Shown here piece by piece: positions 24,085 through 30,262 of a stretch of DNA of 39,112 nucleotides. The notes beneath the pieces were generated by a model that was not told the DNA's origin, searched no databases, and saw only the letters and a list, made by a program, of their open reading frames with translations. The DNA is from Nitrospinota bacterium. GTDB taxonomy: Bacteria; Nitrospirota; Nitrospiria; Nitrospirales; UBA8639. The DNA lies in assembly GCA_022572725.1 (NCBI GenBank), contig JACZVJ010000015.1:1-39112 (forward strand), written 5' to 3'. A program made the position numbers and the translations under genes. Position 1 is the first letter of the stretch. Each line of letters begins with the position of its first letter.

Positions 24085-25767
24085 ATGATGGAGAAAAGAT
24101 GGGGAATGACCCAATTTCATGCGATGGATCAAGTCCCGATAGGGATTTGTGTCCTTAAGAAGGATTTTCTGGTCCACTATTGGAATCGCTGCCTTGAAGA
24201 ATGGACCGGGATCGCTCGACAATCCATCGTTGGCCGACCCATTGGGGAATGGTTTCCCCATTTAATGAGCTCGGAATTTACTGCTAGCTTGACCCCTCTA
24301 TTTGAAGTGGGGGGCCAAATCATCTTTTCTTCAGAATTCCACCCCCACCTTATTCCAGCTTCCTTCCCTGATGGGAAGCTGCGCGTTCAACATACGACTG
24401 CAACGGGGGTTTATGGAGCGGAAGAAGAGGCCTGGCATGCGTTACTGGCTATTCAGGATGTGACCAGCCTCGCGACGCAGGTGGAGGCTCACAAAAGGAT
24501 GCGGGATCAAGCCGAGAAAGAGGTGAAGGAGCGGAAGTTGGCCCAAACGGAATTAGCCCGGCTGACCCGTCACCATGAACTCATCCTACGGGCCGCGGGG
24601 AATGGAATTTTCGGCCTTGATTGCGATGGGATGACTTTGTTTGTGAATCCTGCGGCCGCCAGGATGTTGGGGTGGAACGTTGAGGACATGATTGGAAGAA
24701 GCATGCATTCGATTTTACGGCACGGCTGTTCTGAGGGGATTGGCCTTCAGGGCCGGGCATGTCCCATTTCGGCTACGTGGAGATTGGGAACGATTCAGGG
24801 AGTATCGGAGGATGTCTTTTGGAGGCGGGATGGAACGAATTTTCTTGTTGAGTACGTGAGTGCGCCTATGCGGGAAAATGAAAAGATTGTCGGTGCGGTT
24901 GTCACGTTCAATGACATCACCGAACGGAAAGACCTGGAGAAAAAGGTCCTTCGCTATACCCTAAAGCTAGAAGAAGAAATCGACCGTCGGACAAGTCGCA
25001 TCCGAGAATTGGAGCAGCGCCGCATGCAGGTAGAGAAGTTAGCAGCGTTGGCACAGGTGGCTGCGGGGATCGCCCATGAAATCAATAACCCCCTCGCGGG
25101 GATAAAAAATTCGTTTCATTTAGTGAAAGGCGCTATTCCCCATGATCACCCGTATTTCGGGTATATAGGAAGAATTGACCACGAGATTGAGCGTATCACA
25201 GAGACCATCCGGCGCATGTATCAGCTCTACCGACCGGATCCGGCCGTTCTTGGTCCGGTGAACTTGCAGGGGCTTCTTCGAGATGTTTCGTTAATGGTCG
25301 AGGGCCCCCTAAAGGAACGAAATTTGCGGATGGTGATACAGGTACCCGCCGAAATCCCACTGGTCCGGTTGCCGATGAGAGACATCACTCAAGTCCTGTG
25401 TAACCTTCTTCAAAATGCGATCCAAGCTTCTCCCGAGGGAGAAGTCATTACGGTTGCGGCTGAGCAGGATCATGATCAGCTACAAATCTCAGTGTCCGAC
25501 CGAGGATCAGTCATTCCCCCTCATGTCCTGCCTCATATATTTGAACCTTTTTTCACCACCAAGATGGGAAGCACTCGGGGTGGGATGGGCCTGGGCCTAT
25601 CGGTCTCTCGGAGTTTGATCGAAGCCCTTGGCGGTCGCATTGAGGTAAAAACAGCGGCTGAGACAGGATCCACCTTTACCCTGGTCGTGCCTTTCTTGGA
25701 TGGGGCTGAGGGGCAGGAGAATTCGAGCAAGAGCCGGAAGGCGGAGGTGGTCTGTGGTTGTGAGTGA
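24085..25767 (+). CDS. Soluble PAS-PAS sensor histidine kinase
   Basis: 560 residues. A first PAS-like domain lies at about 10-130, a coiled linker at 135-165, and a second PAS domain at 165-285, which contains the CPISATWR and VFWRRDGTNFLVEY pattern. The dimerisation/phosphoacceptor helix has H331 in AGIAHEINNPLAGI. The ATP-binding domain has N444 in LLQNAIQASP, the F box FEPFFTTK, and the G2 box GGMGLGLS. The G1 box reads SDRGSVIPP, with serine where the second glycine of DxGxG is usual, so ATP binding may be altered. There is no membrane segment, so it senses a cytoplasmic signal. It overlaps the response-regulator gene by eight bases, forming a classic two-component pair. Confidence 0.92.
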   Translation: MMEKRWGMTQFHAMDQVPIGICVLKKDFLVHYWNRCLEEWTGIARQSIVGRPIGEWFPHLMSSEFTASLTPLFEVGGQIIFSSEFHPHLIPASFPDGKLRVQHTTATGVYGAEEEAWHALLAIQDVTSLATQVEAHKRMRDQAEKEVKERKLAQTELARLTRHHELILRAAGNGIFGLDCDGMTLFVNPAAARMLGWNVEDMIGRSMHSILRHGCSEGIGLQGRACPISATWRLGTIQGVSEDVFWRRDGTNFLVEYVSAPMRENEKIVGAVVTFNDITERKDLEKKVLRYTLKLEEEIDRRTSRIRELEQRRMQVEKLAALAQVAAGIAHEINNPLAGIKNSFHLVKGAIPHDHPYFGYIGRIDHEIERITETIRRMYQLYRPDPAVLGPVNLQGLLRDVSLMVEGPLKERNLRMVIQVPAEIPLVRLPMRDITQVLCNLLQNAIQASPEGEVITVAAEQDHDQLQISVSDRGSVIPPHVLPHIFEPFFTTKMGSTRGGMGLGLSVSRSLIEALGGRIEVKTAAETGSTFTLVVPFLDGAEGQENSSKSRKAEVVCGCE

Positions 25768-26518
25768 GCGGGGACGCATTCTATTGGCCGACGACGAGGA
25801 AACCTTTTTGCGATCGACGGCGGACTTATTGAGGGAGCATGGATATGCATGTGATTGTGCCAAAGATTCCCAAGTGGCGATGTCCGCCTTGGCTGAGGAG
25901 GAGTACGATCTTCTCATCAGTGACATAAACATGCCGGGGAATGAACAATTGGAATTTTTCAATGAAGTCAATCAAAAGGGCTACCCCCTCCCGATCATTG
26001 TGATCACTGGGTACCCATCGGTCCAAACCGCTGTGGGTTCCTTTCGCTTATCGGCCGTAGATTATCTGCAGAAACCCTTGGACATTCCTGAGTTCATCAC
26101 TTTGGTGGAGAAGGCTTTGAAAAGGGAACGACTCCTCCGTACCGTACGCAAAACCCATGAGGAATTGGGAGCTTTGGTCGGTACCATGGAAAGCCTGGAA
26201 GAGGTTGGCCGCCTGCCAGGACGTGAGGAAATGAGCGGGCACTTCGCTTCGTGCCTTGGCGCTTACCTGAATCAGGCTGTCACCCAAATCGTTACGGTAT
26301 CCACCGGCCTACAAACCGCTCTTGGTGGTCTGAAGAAAGGGCAAGAAAAGTTGGGTGAGAGAGACCTTTTTGAGGCACTATGTCCGAAGTGCCAAAAATA
26401 TCGGGAAGGCCTTTACCAGACTGTCGAGGTTCTTATAAAAACCAAGGGGGCCTTTAAGTCCAAAGATTTGGGAGAGTTACGACGGAAGACGGAGGTTCTA
26501 CTGAAATCTCTTCATTGA
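25760..26518 (+). CDS. Response regulator without a DNA-binding domain
   Basis: 252 residues from the GTG at 25760, which overlaps the kinase stop by eight bases and has GGAGGT eleven bases upstream. The receiver domain (1-125) has acidic D11/D12, phospho-acceptor D55 in ISDINMPGN, the threonine in VITGYPS and the lysine in YLQKPLD. The remaining 125 residues are helical, with a lone CPKC pair and no HTH, GGDEF or other output motif I recognise, and may form a protein-interaction module. Output is therefore probably not direct transcription control. Confidence 0.88.
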   Translation: MSERGRILLADDEETFLRSTADLLREHGYACDCAKDSQVAMSALAEEEYDLLISDINMPGNEQLEFFNEVNQKGYPLPIIVITGYPSVQTAVGSFRLSAVDYLQKPLDIPEFITLVEKALKRERLLRTVRKTHEELGALVGTMESLEEVGRLPGREEMSGHFASCLGAYLNQAVTQIVTVSTGLQTALGGLKKGQEKLGERDLFEALCPKCQKYREGLYQTVEVLIKTKGAFKSKDLGELRRKTEVLLKSLH

Positions 26519-26600
26519 CTTGAGAATGGCTTAAGTTTTTTTGATGATCACCGACAAGAGACTCTGACCAATATGGATTAATTCACACCATTACCAGGCA

Positions 26601-26760
26601 AATGGCCGGCTACTTTAGCGAACGGGGGCTAGGAACCTGATAGCTGAAGCGTAGTCCAGGGCTTCCAGCTTAGCGAACAGGATAGTCAGGCCTGTTGGTT
26701 GAAGGCGCAATGGAAGATCTCCCATTCGTGGGAGATTTTTTATTGCGCCTTTGTTTTTAG
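26601..26760 (+). ncRNA. Candidate structured RNA downstream of the two-component pair
   Basis: Three successive stem-loops are predicted on the plus strand: AGCTGAAGC (26642-26650) with GCTTCCAGCT (26661-26670), one bulge; AACAGG (26676-26681) with CCTGTT (26691-26696); and a long terminator-type hairpin at 26702-26751. A near-direct repeat, TTAGCGAACxGG, occurs twice (about 26615 and 26670). The long stem contains G-U pairs that hold only in the plus-strand transcript, which indicates its direction. It could be a stand-alone small RNA or the 3' UTR of the regulator gene. The 5' boundary is a guess. Confidence 0.45.
26702..26758 (+). terminator. Rho-independent terminator with UUCG tetraloop
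   Basis: A continuous 23-bp stem: AAGGCGCAAT (26702-26711) pairs perfectly with ATTGCGCCTT (26742-26751), and ATCTCCCA with TGGGAGAT around a TTCG loop (26725-26728). The segment between them closes with A-U and G-U pairs. A T-rich tract follows (26750-26758). This is a strong intrinsic terminator for rightward transcription. Confidence 0.75.
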
Positions 26761-26953
26761 AATGGGGGCTCACTCCAATATGTTGTGTAATGGCGTAGGA
26801 GGAGAGACTGAGTTGCTGATAGGGAGAGAAAGAATTCGGTATGGTACCCCTGCGGTTCGGGGTCTCTCAATCACGCACGTATTTCATGGATTGTTCGTGG
26901 GATTAGACCATTAAAAACCAACGACCAGTAACCTCAAGAAAGGAGATTGCCCA

Positions 26954-27157
26954 ATGTTCAGTGATAAGGTCCTGACCATCACCGATGTCGCCACATTTTT
27001 GAGAATTCCAAAATCCTCGGTCTATAAGTTAATTCACGTGGGTGGACTGCCGGCTCATAAAGTAGGCAAACATTTTCGCCTTGTGCATGGGGAAGTCCAA
27101 GATTGGCTGGAGCAGGGTTCGATTGGCGCACAGCTTGAGGTCTCTCAGAGGGTGTAG
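26954..27157 (+). CDS. Excisionase-type helix-turn-helix protein
   Basis: 67 residues with AAAGGAG eight bases before the ATG. TITDVATFLRIPKSSVYKLIHVGGLPAHKVGKHFRL is the MerR-like helix-turn-helix of the excisionase/HTH_17 family, which binds DNA through one winged helix; ending VQDWLEQ is usual. No integrase, att site or other phage gene is near, so it more likely acts as a small transcription factor than as a recombination directionality factor. It lies between a terminator and the broken hybrid kinase and could have been that kinase's neighbour regulator. Confidence 0.8.
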   Translation: MFSDKVLTITDVATFLRIPKSSVYKLIHVGGLPAHKVGKHFRLVHGEVQDWLEQGSIGAQLEVSQRV

Positions 27158-27291: not shown

Positions 27292-30262
27292 ATGACAGAA
27301 GTAAATCCTCAACGCGCCGGCAATGGCCAGCATGAAGAAGGACTTGTGGCCCTGCATCGGCGCGATGCGCGGTCCCGCCTTATCATCGAGCAGGCGCTTG
27401 ATGCCATCATCACCCTGGATGCTAATGGCCACACACCGATTGGAACCCCCAAGCCGAGAGGATCCTGGGGTGGTCTCACTATGAGGCCTTGGGCCGGTCC
27501 TTTACGGAGACGATTTTTCCCCCTCAGTACCGCGAAGACTATACTCGTGGATTTCGACGGTTTATGGAAACAGGAGAAAGAGCCCTGTTGAACACACGCT
27601 TTGAGACCACCGTCTTACATCGAAACGGGACGGAATTCCCCGTCGAAATAGCAATTAGTCCACTCGCGATGGACGGCACATTTCTCTTTAGCGCCTTTAT
27701 CCGCGATATTCGTGATCGACGACAGGCCGATCGGGCGCTCCTGCGGGAGGCCGTGATCGTCCACCTATTGCAAGGAGTCGTGGCGGCTGCGAATGAGGCC
27801 CCCACGGTTGACCTGGCTTTGCAGTCCAGCCTCGATTGGATCTGTTCAGTGATTGGGTGGTCCGTGGGCCATGTCTACATCCGTTCTAAGGAATCTAAGG
27901 ATTGTTTGCTCTCAACGAACATTTGGTACCTGGAGAATCCCAACAGGTTTGAAAGTTTTCGGCTGGCCACCGAACGGACGGGACTTCATTCAAGGTCTGG
28001 GTTGCCGGGCCAGGTGTTGGAGCGACGCCTACCCGTGTCCATGATCGATGTCGCCAACGACCCCACATTTTCTCGTGCCTCCGAGGCGAGAGCCGTGGGT
28101 TTGGGGGCCGGCTTTGCTTCACCGGTTTTGGTGGGATCTGAAGTCGTGGCGGTCCTGGAGTTTTTCTCGGAGAAGGCAGAAGAGCCCGATGAACGACTTA
28201 TGCAGACGTTGGTGACGGTAGGGGTCCAACTGGGCCACGTGGTTAAGCGAAAAGATGTTGAGTTGGAGTTGATTCGAGCCAAGGAAGATTCCGAGGCTGC
28301 AGATCGAGCTAAGTCAGAGTTTCTTGCGAATATAACCACGAAATTCGGACTCCAATGAACGGCGTGATTGGGATGATCGGGCTTTTGCTGGATACGCCAC
28401 TTTCCCCTGAACAGCGAGACTATGCGGAAACAGTTCGGAATTCCGCTGAATCTCTATTGACCGTGCTGAATGATATTCTGGATTTCTACAAAATCGAGGC
28501 AGGTAAGCTAGCTCTAGAGATGATCGATTTTGACTTGCGAACCGCCGTGGAGGACGTGGTCGGTTTGCTAGCCGAAAAGGCTGAACCCAAGGGCATTGAG
28601 ATAGCCTGCCTCCTTCACTCGGATGTTCCCCATGAACTCAGGGGTGACCCTTGGCGTATTCGCCAGATTCTGATGAACCTGGTTGGAAACGCGGTGAAAT
28701 TTACGGACCAAGGGGATGTCGTCGTTCAAGCGTACAGAGTTCGAGGGGAAAACGGTGAAGTGGTTATTCGGATAGAGGTTGTCGATACCAGAATCGGGAT
28801 TCCACTGGAGCATCGAGGACGGCTTTTTCAATCTTTCACTCAAGCGGATAGCTCGACGACTCGGAAATACGGGGGGACAGGCTTGGGATTGGCTATTCGT
28901 AAACAATTAACCACCATGATGGGCGGAGACATAGGGTGTGAGAGTGAAACGGGAAAAGGGTCCACCTTCTGGTTTACAGTTCGCCTCGAACTGCAAAATG
29001 GTGGTCAGGAGTCAAGAGTCACTCCTCGTGGGGATTTAAAGGGACTCCGGCTATTGATCGTCGACGACAACGCGACCAACCGGAAAATTTTGGAACAGTA
29101 CGCAAAAACCTGGGGGATGGTCAGTGAAAGTGTAGAGGATGGGCCCTCAGCGCTTCACACTCTCCATGCTGCTGCGGAGAAAGGTGAACCGTTCCATTTG
29201 GCCCTCTTGGACATGCAAATGCCCAATATGGACGGGTTAATGCTGGCTCAGGCCATTAAAGACGATCCTCCCATTGCATCGGGTGCGACTGTTGATTTTG
29301 ACGTCTTTGGGACGCCGGGGGGACGCGAAGAAAGCCAAGGAAGCCGGCATTGCCGCTTATCTCACCAAACCGGTTCGTCCATCTCCGTTATTTGATTCCC
29401 TGTCTATGGTTATGGGTCCGGCTGGGGAGATTAGCCGGGAGCGAATCGTGACCTGCTGCACGGTGAAGGAGGATGAACGGCGATCCTCGATCCGGATCCT
29501 GCTGGCCGAAGATAATCCCGTCAACCCAAAAGTGGCAGTCCGGATACTTGAGAGGTTCACCTGGCGGACTGATGTCGTGAGCAATGGACGAGAGGCGGTG
29601 GCGGCTTGGCAGCGTGGCTCTTATAATCTGATCCTCACCCATAACTCTTCACCGTATTCCCATCATCGCCATGACGGCCAACGCTATGACGGGAGACCGG
29701 GAGAGATGCCTGGAAGCTGGAATGGATGATTATATCGCCAAACCCGTGAGGTCAGAGGTTTTGAAGGAGGTCATCCTTGGGTGGCTGGTAAAGCCTCGAG
29801 CTGAGGTCCACGGTGTGGAGCCGAGTGAGGGTCCGTGGCCTTCAGTCTCCCAAGGATCAATCTCTTTGAGTGGGCAGGGAGACTCCGTGGAGGAGAACTG
29901 TTTGGATGAACAGGTTCTTAAGGAACTTCAGTCCCTTGGAGGCGACGATCAGCCAGATTTCGTGAATGCGGTTATTCAGCAATTCCTCGACGATCAGGGA
30001 AAACATACCACTGCTTATTGAGGAAGCGGTGAAACAGGGAGATCCCTTGGCCCTTCGAAGGGCGGCTCACAGCCTGAAGGGAAGCAGTGGCAAGGTAGGG
30101 GCACGATCCCTAGCCGCCGTTTTGATCAACTTGGTGAAAATTGGGGCTACCGGCACCCTGGATGACGTGGAGCCGCTTCTCTTCCATCTCCGATTGGAAT
30201 CAGAAAGGACCAGGCGTGCCCTTGAGCGGAAAATGCTTGTCCAGCCAGCTGGACTCCCATAA
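27292..30262 (+). pseudogene. Hybrid histidine kinase broken by five lesions
   Basis: Read across frames, it encodes PAS (LIIEQALDAIITLDANG, then DWNPQAERILGWSHYEALGR), GAF (about 27780-28240), HisKA, HATPase (GTGLGLAI), receiver 1 ([27 protein letters not shown]), receiver 2 (ILLAEDNPVN) and Hpt (AHSLKGSSGKVGARSLA). Frame changes occur near 27435, 28335, 29283, 29640 and 30000. The second falls within the H box: ILAN-type sequence in one frame continues as HEIRTPMNG in the next. At 29640 the change also removes the segment that should hold the receiver-2 aspartate motif. Fully assembled it would be a BarA/ArcB-like phosphorelay kinase of about 980 residues. No translation of the whole is possible; it is a pseudogene unless the assembly is wrong at all five sites. 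Confidence 0.88.

Follow-up and report, generated by a model that had tools for sequence, protein, structure and literature searches.

The window, by which we mean the whole 39,112-nucleotide stretch of DNA analysed here, carries a histidine kinase gene and a response-regulator gene followed by a compact series of putative transcriptional elements and a small HTH_17 gene, all on the same strand.

24085-25767, plus strand: PAS histidine kinase (Pfam), by adjacency the probable partner of the response regulator
25700-26518, plus strand: response regulator (Pfam Response_reg; receiver, long coil, unclassified C-terminus), candidate trans-acting partner of the RNA
26531-26557, plus strand: predicted FliA-like (sigma28) promoter, with TTAAGTTT at 26531-26538, an 11-nt spacer and ACCGACAA at 26550-26557
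26564-26759, plus strand: predicted transcript if terminated, its 5' end placed from the position of the -10 element
26610-26655, plus strand: hairpin D1, CUACUUUAGC...GCUGAAGCGUAG
26668-26706, plus strand: hairpin D2, conserved core, with P1 (26668-26671/26703-26706), P2 (AGC/GUU) and P3 (ACAGG/CCUGU)
26702-26759, plus strand: intrinsic terminator with a 23-bp stem, a UUCG loop and a T tract
26954-27157, plus strand: HTH_17 (excisionase-like) gene (Pfam), the next gene downstream

The terminator is present as the first-pass annotation of this DNA had described it: the stem at 26702-26751 comprises 23 bp with three G-U pairs around a TTCG loop (26725-26728), a T tract follows, and the hairpin folded alone reaches -36.0 kcal/mol. 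The loop is closed by an A-U pair and is therefore not a classical C(UUCG)G tetraloop. When the minus strand is folded, three positions of the same stem are mismatched, in agreement with the claim that pairing is complete on the plus strand only. Equally, the two near-identical TTAGCGAAC segments noted upstream exist, and they turn out to be the 5' strands of the two hairpins, TTAGCGAACGGG at 26615-26626 belonging to D1 and TTAGCGAACAGG at 26670-26681 to D2. The two hairpins resemble one another and can be aligned to each other, and by eye the sequence of D1 varies strongly among families. Folding of 26585-26760 gives a z score of -5.4 with none of 200 shuffles equally stable; the 118 nt upstream of the terminator (26585-26702), folded alone, are no better than shuffled sequence (z -0.70, 44/200 equally stable), so that the stability is supplied by the terminator. 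The upstream structure, unproven by the single sequence, is established by the comparative evidence given below.

The unit begins farther 5' than the starts at 26585 or 26601 originally assigned to it, the promoter-like site beginning at 26531 and the predicted transcript near 26564. Since this site lies after the response-regulator gene and belongs to the RNA itself, the RNA is probably not the 3' UTR of that gene, which had been one of the two original suggestions. The start codon of the HTH_17 gene lies 195 nt past the terminator, a gap that makes cis control in the window something we infer.

Two observations on the flanking genes may be added. A second HTH_17 gene in the same genome (G000:C115, L073 1643-1825) is 70% identical to its window counterpart, and comparison by eye with window 26769-27157 shows that some 185 nt of upstream sequence are duplicated too, starting just past the terminator; as homology between the paralogs starts only there, a separate promoter probably serves the HTH_17 gene. 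Further downstream, a hybrid kinase (27489-30262) is broken into five open reading frames in different frames (Pfam was run on the first two), and a relative (L080) has one long frame at this position, which points to assembly frameshifts or decay as the origin of the split in the window.

Relatives, promoter-like sites and downstream genes

When 48 genomes of the window's family were searched at the DNA level, four genomes apart from the window's own gave matches at E<=0.01; three of the matching loci are syntenic (L010 in G026, L011 in G027 and L012 in G017) and share the order kinase, response regulator, RNA and HTH_17 gene; the fourth (L013 in G014) falls within a coding region and was judged by eye to be due to chance. 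Because alignment with MAFFT went wrong in parts of D1 or D2, a covariance model, R1, was built from L010-L012 only, leaving the window out; it nevertheless recovers the window at E 3.1e-7 in its own genome and, over the 48 genomes, gives E<0.1 only in the four syntenic ones. Applied to 18 sources, chiefly contigs obtained by way of the regulator, R1 yields weak matches (E 0.0055-0.16) in the Nitrospira-type contigs L081-L084, where they fall past the regulator gene and before the next large gene.

A second model, R2, describes D2 and was made from eight sequences, among them the window, whose D2 accordingly scores 55.5 bits as a member of the training set; R2 also detects D1 of L079, on the L012 contig, at E 0.028. 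Of 395 Nitrospirota genomes, 48 have a match at E<=0.1; at E<=1e-3 there are 26, all from the window's order, and the weaker matches are mostly taken as chance. Some Nitrospirota genomes hold two or three copies, and the window's own genome has a second, divergent one (contig C22, E 0.005) before a chemoreceptor gene. Thirty genomes reached through a search with the regulator include eight with an R2 match at E<=0.1, five of them taken as chance; the other three are G416 of the Holophagaceae (strong, 5e-7), G419 of Candidatus Scalindua (strong, 7e-7, four matches) and, weaker, G418 of the Eisenbacteria (0.012), where a terminator and a downstream chemoreceptor gene accompany the match and R1 finds the same copy independently (L087, minus strand 360-438, E 0.029). 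Scalindua and Eisenbacteria are represented by one genome each, and the phylum names of genomes outside the window's phylum follow in part general taxonomic knowledge. In the class of G416, the Holophagae, 21 of 93 genomes have matches at E<=0.02; the largest number per genome is four (G522, G419).

The final set comprises 62 copies of D2, 34 from Nitrospirota and 28 from other phyla (Holophagae, Scalindua, Eisenbacteria), obtained from hand-picked sources, so that the E-values of that search apply to those loci only. R2 matches judged false by eye (L201, L202, L203, L208, L247-L251, L255, L273, L275, L276) stand outside it, as do L176, which is nearly the same as L175, and L256, which duplicates a copy in L254; L278:870-913 was counted in the 63-copy covariation alignment and dropped from the 62. 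Three weak matches in plasmid and phage collections (E 0.2-0.7) were taken as chance. The statement that no known RNA class could be recognised also holds against Rfam, which gives no match at the gathering threshold in the window or in 16 further loci, and none at E<=1 in seven loci. Matches of the window below the threshold include Plastid-psbA-2 at E 8.7e-5, which covers the terminator hairpin alone. A CsrA sponge was rejected because the AGGA-like motifs vary between copies (by eye), and attC, kink-turn and c-di-GMP-I elements were weighed against their general consensus and set aside. In the open-access literature searched we found no description of this RNA family.

The promoter-like site, D1, D2 and the intrinsic terminator recur together as one unit. 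The FliA consensus used for scoring belongs to general background knowledge; against it the window site scores 13/16 and stands 110 nt before D2, and the same site recurs with identical 11-nt spacer and location in L010, L011 and L012. A FliA-like site of at least 12/16 lies within 120 nt before D2 in 29/34 Nitrospirota copies, as compared with 1/273 control stretches from the loci. Such sites are rare outside the Nitrospirota (4/28 copies reach 12/16), and by eye some Holophagae promoters resemble sigma70 sites. In L081-L084, whose genomes are represented for L081 and L084 by L206 and L183, a strict promoter pattern has no match and the looser 16-position score finds sites of 12-13/16. The copy in G399 (family f3; L184/L210) differs in its surroundings: by eye it stands behind a tRNA-like sequence, has a sigma70-like site (TTGACA-N17-TGTAAT) and no D1, and precedes an open reading frame that begins soon past the terminator; the regulator was not found in that genome.

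An RBS-led open reading frame of at least 60 aa on the same strand within 330 nt of D2 follows 54/62 copies, its start 36-286 nt after D2, and by the same rule none follows the other eight. An intrinsic terminator thus lies between the predicted promoter and a same-strand start codon, as in an attenuator, and the close downstream gene in so many relatives makes a leader with a conditional terminator likelier than a free-standing small RNA. The distance from the last T run to the start codon is about 14 nt in L183 and L191, which leaves no space for a promoter there. Nineteen hand-picked downstream proteins were compared with Pfam: ten are chemoreceptors (MCPsignal or 4HB_MCP_1), one is CheW, one carries DUF3391 with an HD domain and seven have kinase, PAS or receiver domains. 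Those of L081, L082 and L183 have chemoreceptor domains.

D2 as base-paired RNA and its overlap with the terminator

Over the 11 pairs of D2 in 63 aligned copies (61 distinct), in an alignment that was fitted to the model and is hence biased toward the structure, 96.6% of cells are paired against 93.5 after shuffling, and 28 cells show double changes against 10.5 +- 3.7, a value reached by none of 500 shuffles. Pairs with changes on both sides number five against 2.6 (2/500 as high), and sliding the D2 partners lets pairing fall to 23-41%. The Nitrospirota-only set, which includes the later-dropped rows L208 and D1 of L079, gives the same covariation picture. The middle pair of P2 is most commonly G-U (39/61 rows) and G-U is frequent in two other pairs, which fits an RNA and not a DNA palindrome. 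By this comparison of sequences, D2 is shown to be base-paired RNA. The claim of a structured RNA under selection at the RNA level is thereby borne out by conserved sequence, conserved structure and compensatory changes in relatives; the finding named in advance as speaking against it, an absence of conservation upstream of the terminator, is the opposite of what relatives display.

These same data bear on the notion that the regulator binds D2 as a DNA operator, the hairpin arising incidentally from an inverted repeat. D2 does lie just 3' of the promoter-like site in the 29 Nitrospirota copies mentioned, and the regulator could bind DNA; a DNA palindrome, however, would not retain G-U as the commonest form of the middle P2 pair and a frequent one in two others, nor does an operator agree with the conserved overlap between D2 and the terminator, and we regard this reading as highly improbable.

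The overlap arises because the 5' foot of the terminator, AGGC at 26703-26706, doubles as the 3' strand of P1, so that formation of a complete D2 precludes that of a complete terminator, and vice versa. The GGC of D2 is paired inside D2 folded alone in 59/62 copies and pairs with the 3' arm of the terminator in the longer fold in 54/62, where the zero recorded for the terminator of the window is an artefact of a cut at an inner T run, as it is by eye for L183 and L191. The window's zero for GGC pairing in D2 alone is real. There the minimum free energy structure of D2 lacks P1 (-12.8 as against -10.0 kcal/mol), and the terminator fold surpasses the complete-D2 fold by 11 kcal/mol; both the cost of a complete D2 and the preference for the form without P1 make the window a weak representative of the family to which it belongs. 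A T run was found by a simple pattern in 53/62 copies. The competing alternative structure expected of an attenuator is accordingly present over the copies and weak in the window.

The response regulator and its co-occurrence with the RNA

The receiver domain of the regulator has invariant D15, D16, D59, T87 and K109 (alignment A11), and its C-terminus carries a conserved motif, T-K-x-x-F-K-S-K-x-L-x-x-L-R (model A13), for which no relatives were found in Pfam, PDB sequences or Foldseek. A structural model of the coil and C-terminal region, of low confidence (pTM 0.43), shows a two-helix hairpin, for which Foldseek returns nothing at E<=0.001. The motif is present, too, in open frames 600-1100 codons long and in short ones of some 100 codons (G518 and G484 in Holophagae; G334 and G357 in Nitrospirota f33), and this variety suggests that it may be a mobile domain.

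The C-terminus is found in 46/395 Nitrospirota and 20/93 Holophagae genomes, and it accompanies the RNA closely: 23 of the 26 RNA-positive Nitrospirota genomes (E<=1e-3) have it (Fisher p 1.7e-21, phylogeny ignored), as do 18 of the 20 RNA-positive Holophagae (E<=0.01; Fisher p 4.7e-15, phylogeny likewise ignored) and 16/16 at E<=0.005. By eye the RNA matches of the two Holophagae exceptions, G459 and G477, look like coding sequence. Among Nitrospirota the regulator was not detected in the RNA-positive genomes G304, G369 and G399, nor in G319, whose RNA match (E 0.00106) falls just under the cut-off. Genetic linkage explains part of the co-occurrence. Conversely, 23 regulator-positive Nitrospirota genomes have no R2 match at 1e-3. 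Twenty of these were read over about 360 nt: 11 have no RNA recognisable by eye and R2, five (L229, L234, L235, L236, L238) keep a FliA-like site, D1 and P3 after the regulator gene with the part comprising P1 and the terminator absent, two (L231, L240) have a variant with a terminator, and two (L241, L242) have a promoter-like site and altered hairpins. In L241, L242 and L243, which belong to other genera of the family, a gene for a STAS-domain protein follows the regulator by eye, there is no clear terminator and the hairpins are altered or absent.

The C-terminus pattern occurs within 900 nt upstream of 36/62 copies, and the pattern missed at least one further case, L199. For about 25 of the 62 copies that distance contains no regulator gene, two contigs ending inside the 900 nt, and this absence fits action in trans. 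This distribution is relevant to the other original suggestion, a free-standing small RNA, in which a sigma28-like promoter and a constitutive terminator would delimit a transcript that acts in trans, for instance on motility mRNAs, its sensory-gene neighbours reflecting no more than gene order. Such an RNA would account for the promoter-like site of its own, the strong terminator and the conserved core sequence, and for the position of the next gene some 110-195 nt past the terminator in the window, L079 and L080. It sits poorly with up to four matches per genome, with the start codons placed so close to the terminator in L183 and L191, with the conserved overlap of D2 and the terminator foot, and with the copies standing apart from the regulator gene, of which the five tested precede chemoreceptor or PAS proteins (L214, L246, L277, L258, L271). 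We therefore consider the small RNA rather unlikely and the leader better supported.

Chemoreceptor and HD-GYP-like genes are typical cyclic-di-GMP targets, and the DUF3391-HD protein downstream of one copy is presumably HD-GYP-like. These neighbours, together with an overlap of P1 and terminator of the kind known from ON riboswitches, would suit a metabolite riboswitch in which D1 and D2 form an aptamer for cyclic di-GMP or another signal and the regulator co-occurs through a shared sensory network. Yet D2 is small and its apical loop variable in length, the sequence of D1 is variable by eye, Rfam offers no family at gathering threshold, and the co-occurrence with one particular regulator is tight, all of which render a riboswitch decidedly unlikely.

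Proposed mechanism and known systems

On the sequence comparisons, what lies in the window is one member of a real, conserved and uncatalogued family of leader RNAs with a likely protein partner, the mechanism of which we infer. We consider it fairly probable that the RNA belongs to a new family of 5' leader attenuators subject to antitermination by the regulator. By default, transcription would halt at the terminator; upon phosphorylation by the kinase the regulator would bind D2, and the bound regulator would keep P1-P2 closed, thereby allowing the polymerase to read through. Such antitermination would follow ANTAR-like logic by means of another RNA and, as far as tested, another protein domain. 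The broader proposition, that the family represents a second, non-ANTAR lineage of two-component antiterminators in which the C-terminus is the RNA-binding module for D2 and which controls chemotaxis and sensory genes, once their transcription is under way, in at least four phyla, is to our minds evenly balanced.

Were these proposals correct, a signal sensed by the kinase would determine the choice of chemoreceptors and signalling enzymes produced, and would do so at the RNA level, after the opening of the promoter by FliA. The unannotated C-terminal domain would gain a function as a second RNA-binding output domain of response regulators, ANTAR being to our knowledge the only one so far, and a set of target genes would be predicted in uncultured nitrifiers, Scalindua and Holophagae.

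Several known systems share parts of this arrangement. Enterobacterial sigma28-dependent small RNAs such as MotR have a FliA-type promoter and a flagellar or chemotaxis context, and in both promoter and chemotaxis context the present RNA is like them; it differs in having several copies per genome in some species, in lying usually 5' to a gene and in overlapping the terminator. In ON-type transcriptional riboswitches, for example pbuE, the 3' strand of P1 belongs to the terminator, as it does here, whereas our RNA has no known aptamer and no Rfam match at threshold. The RAT hairpin of the BglG/SacY/LicT antiterminators, according to a passage of PMC3369931, overlaps its terminator partly, and so does D2. 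The linked protein here is, in contrast, a receiver-domain regulator and not one under PTS control. The sequence of D2, moreover, we take to be unlike RAT.

The closest parallel is offered by the ANTAR systems, which, as described in passages of PMC3369931 and PMC8934654, combine a two-component regulator with two-hairpin leaders whose second hairpin excludes an intrinsic terminator, the tandem hairpins having six-base loops with A at position 1 and G at position 4. As in EutV with the eutP leader, AmiR and NasR, we find a receiver with a coiled coil, a dual hairpin and several leaders per genome, and the mutual exclusion of second hairpin and terminator is seen in the family (59/62 and 54/62, as above) and is weak in the window. 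One legend of PMC3369931 refers to a putative ANTAR site that overlaps a chemoreceptor gene at its start, so that, going by this legend, leader control of chemoreceptor genes has been suggested earlier. The differences concern both partners. The apical loops of D2 have 7 nt in 45/62 copies and 6 nt in two, neither with A1/G4, the loops of D1 having been compared by eye. The ANTAR profile PF03861 is absent from the window regulator, for which Response_reg is the sole match at E<=1; ANTAR is likewise missing among the 11 families matched at E<=10 by 15 regulator C-termini and among the best 25 of the 32 families listed for 17 regulators. Foldseek places EutV at rank 3 for the model of the whole regulator, with other receiver proteins matching too, and VIA-align, dominated by receiver domains, gives EutV (6wsh) a Z of 18.3, tied with other response regulators; because the match is shared with other receiver proteins, the resemblance to EutV is no proof of an ANTAR fold. 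The RNA-regulator pair, judged from its sequences, is not classed as an ANTAR system and would nonetheless appear to work like one.
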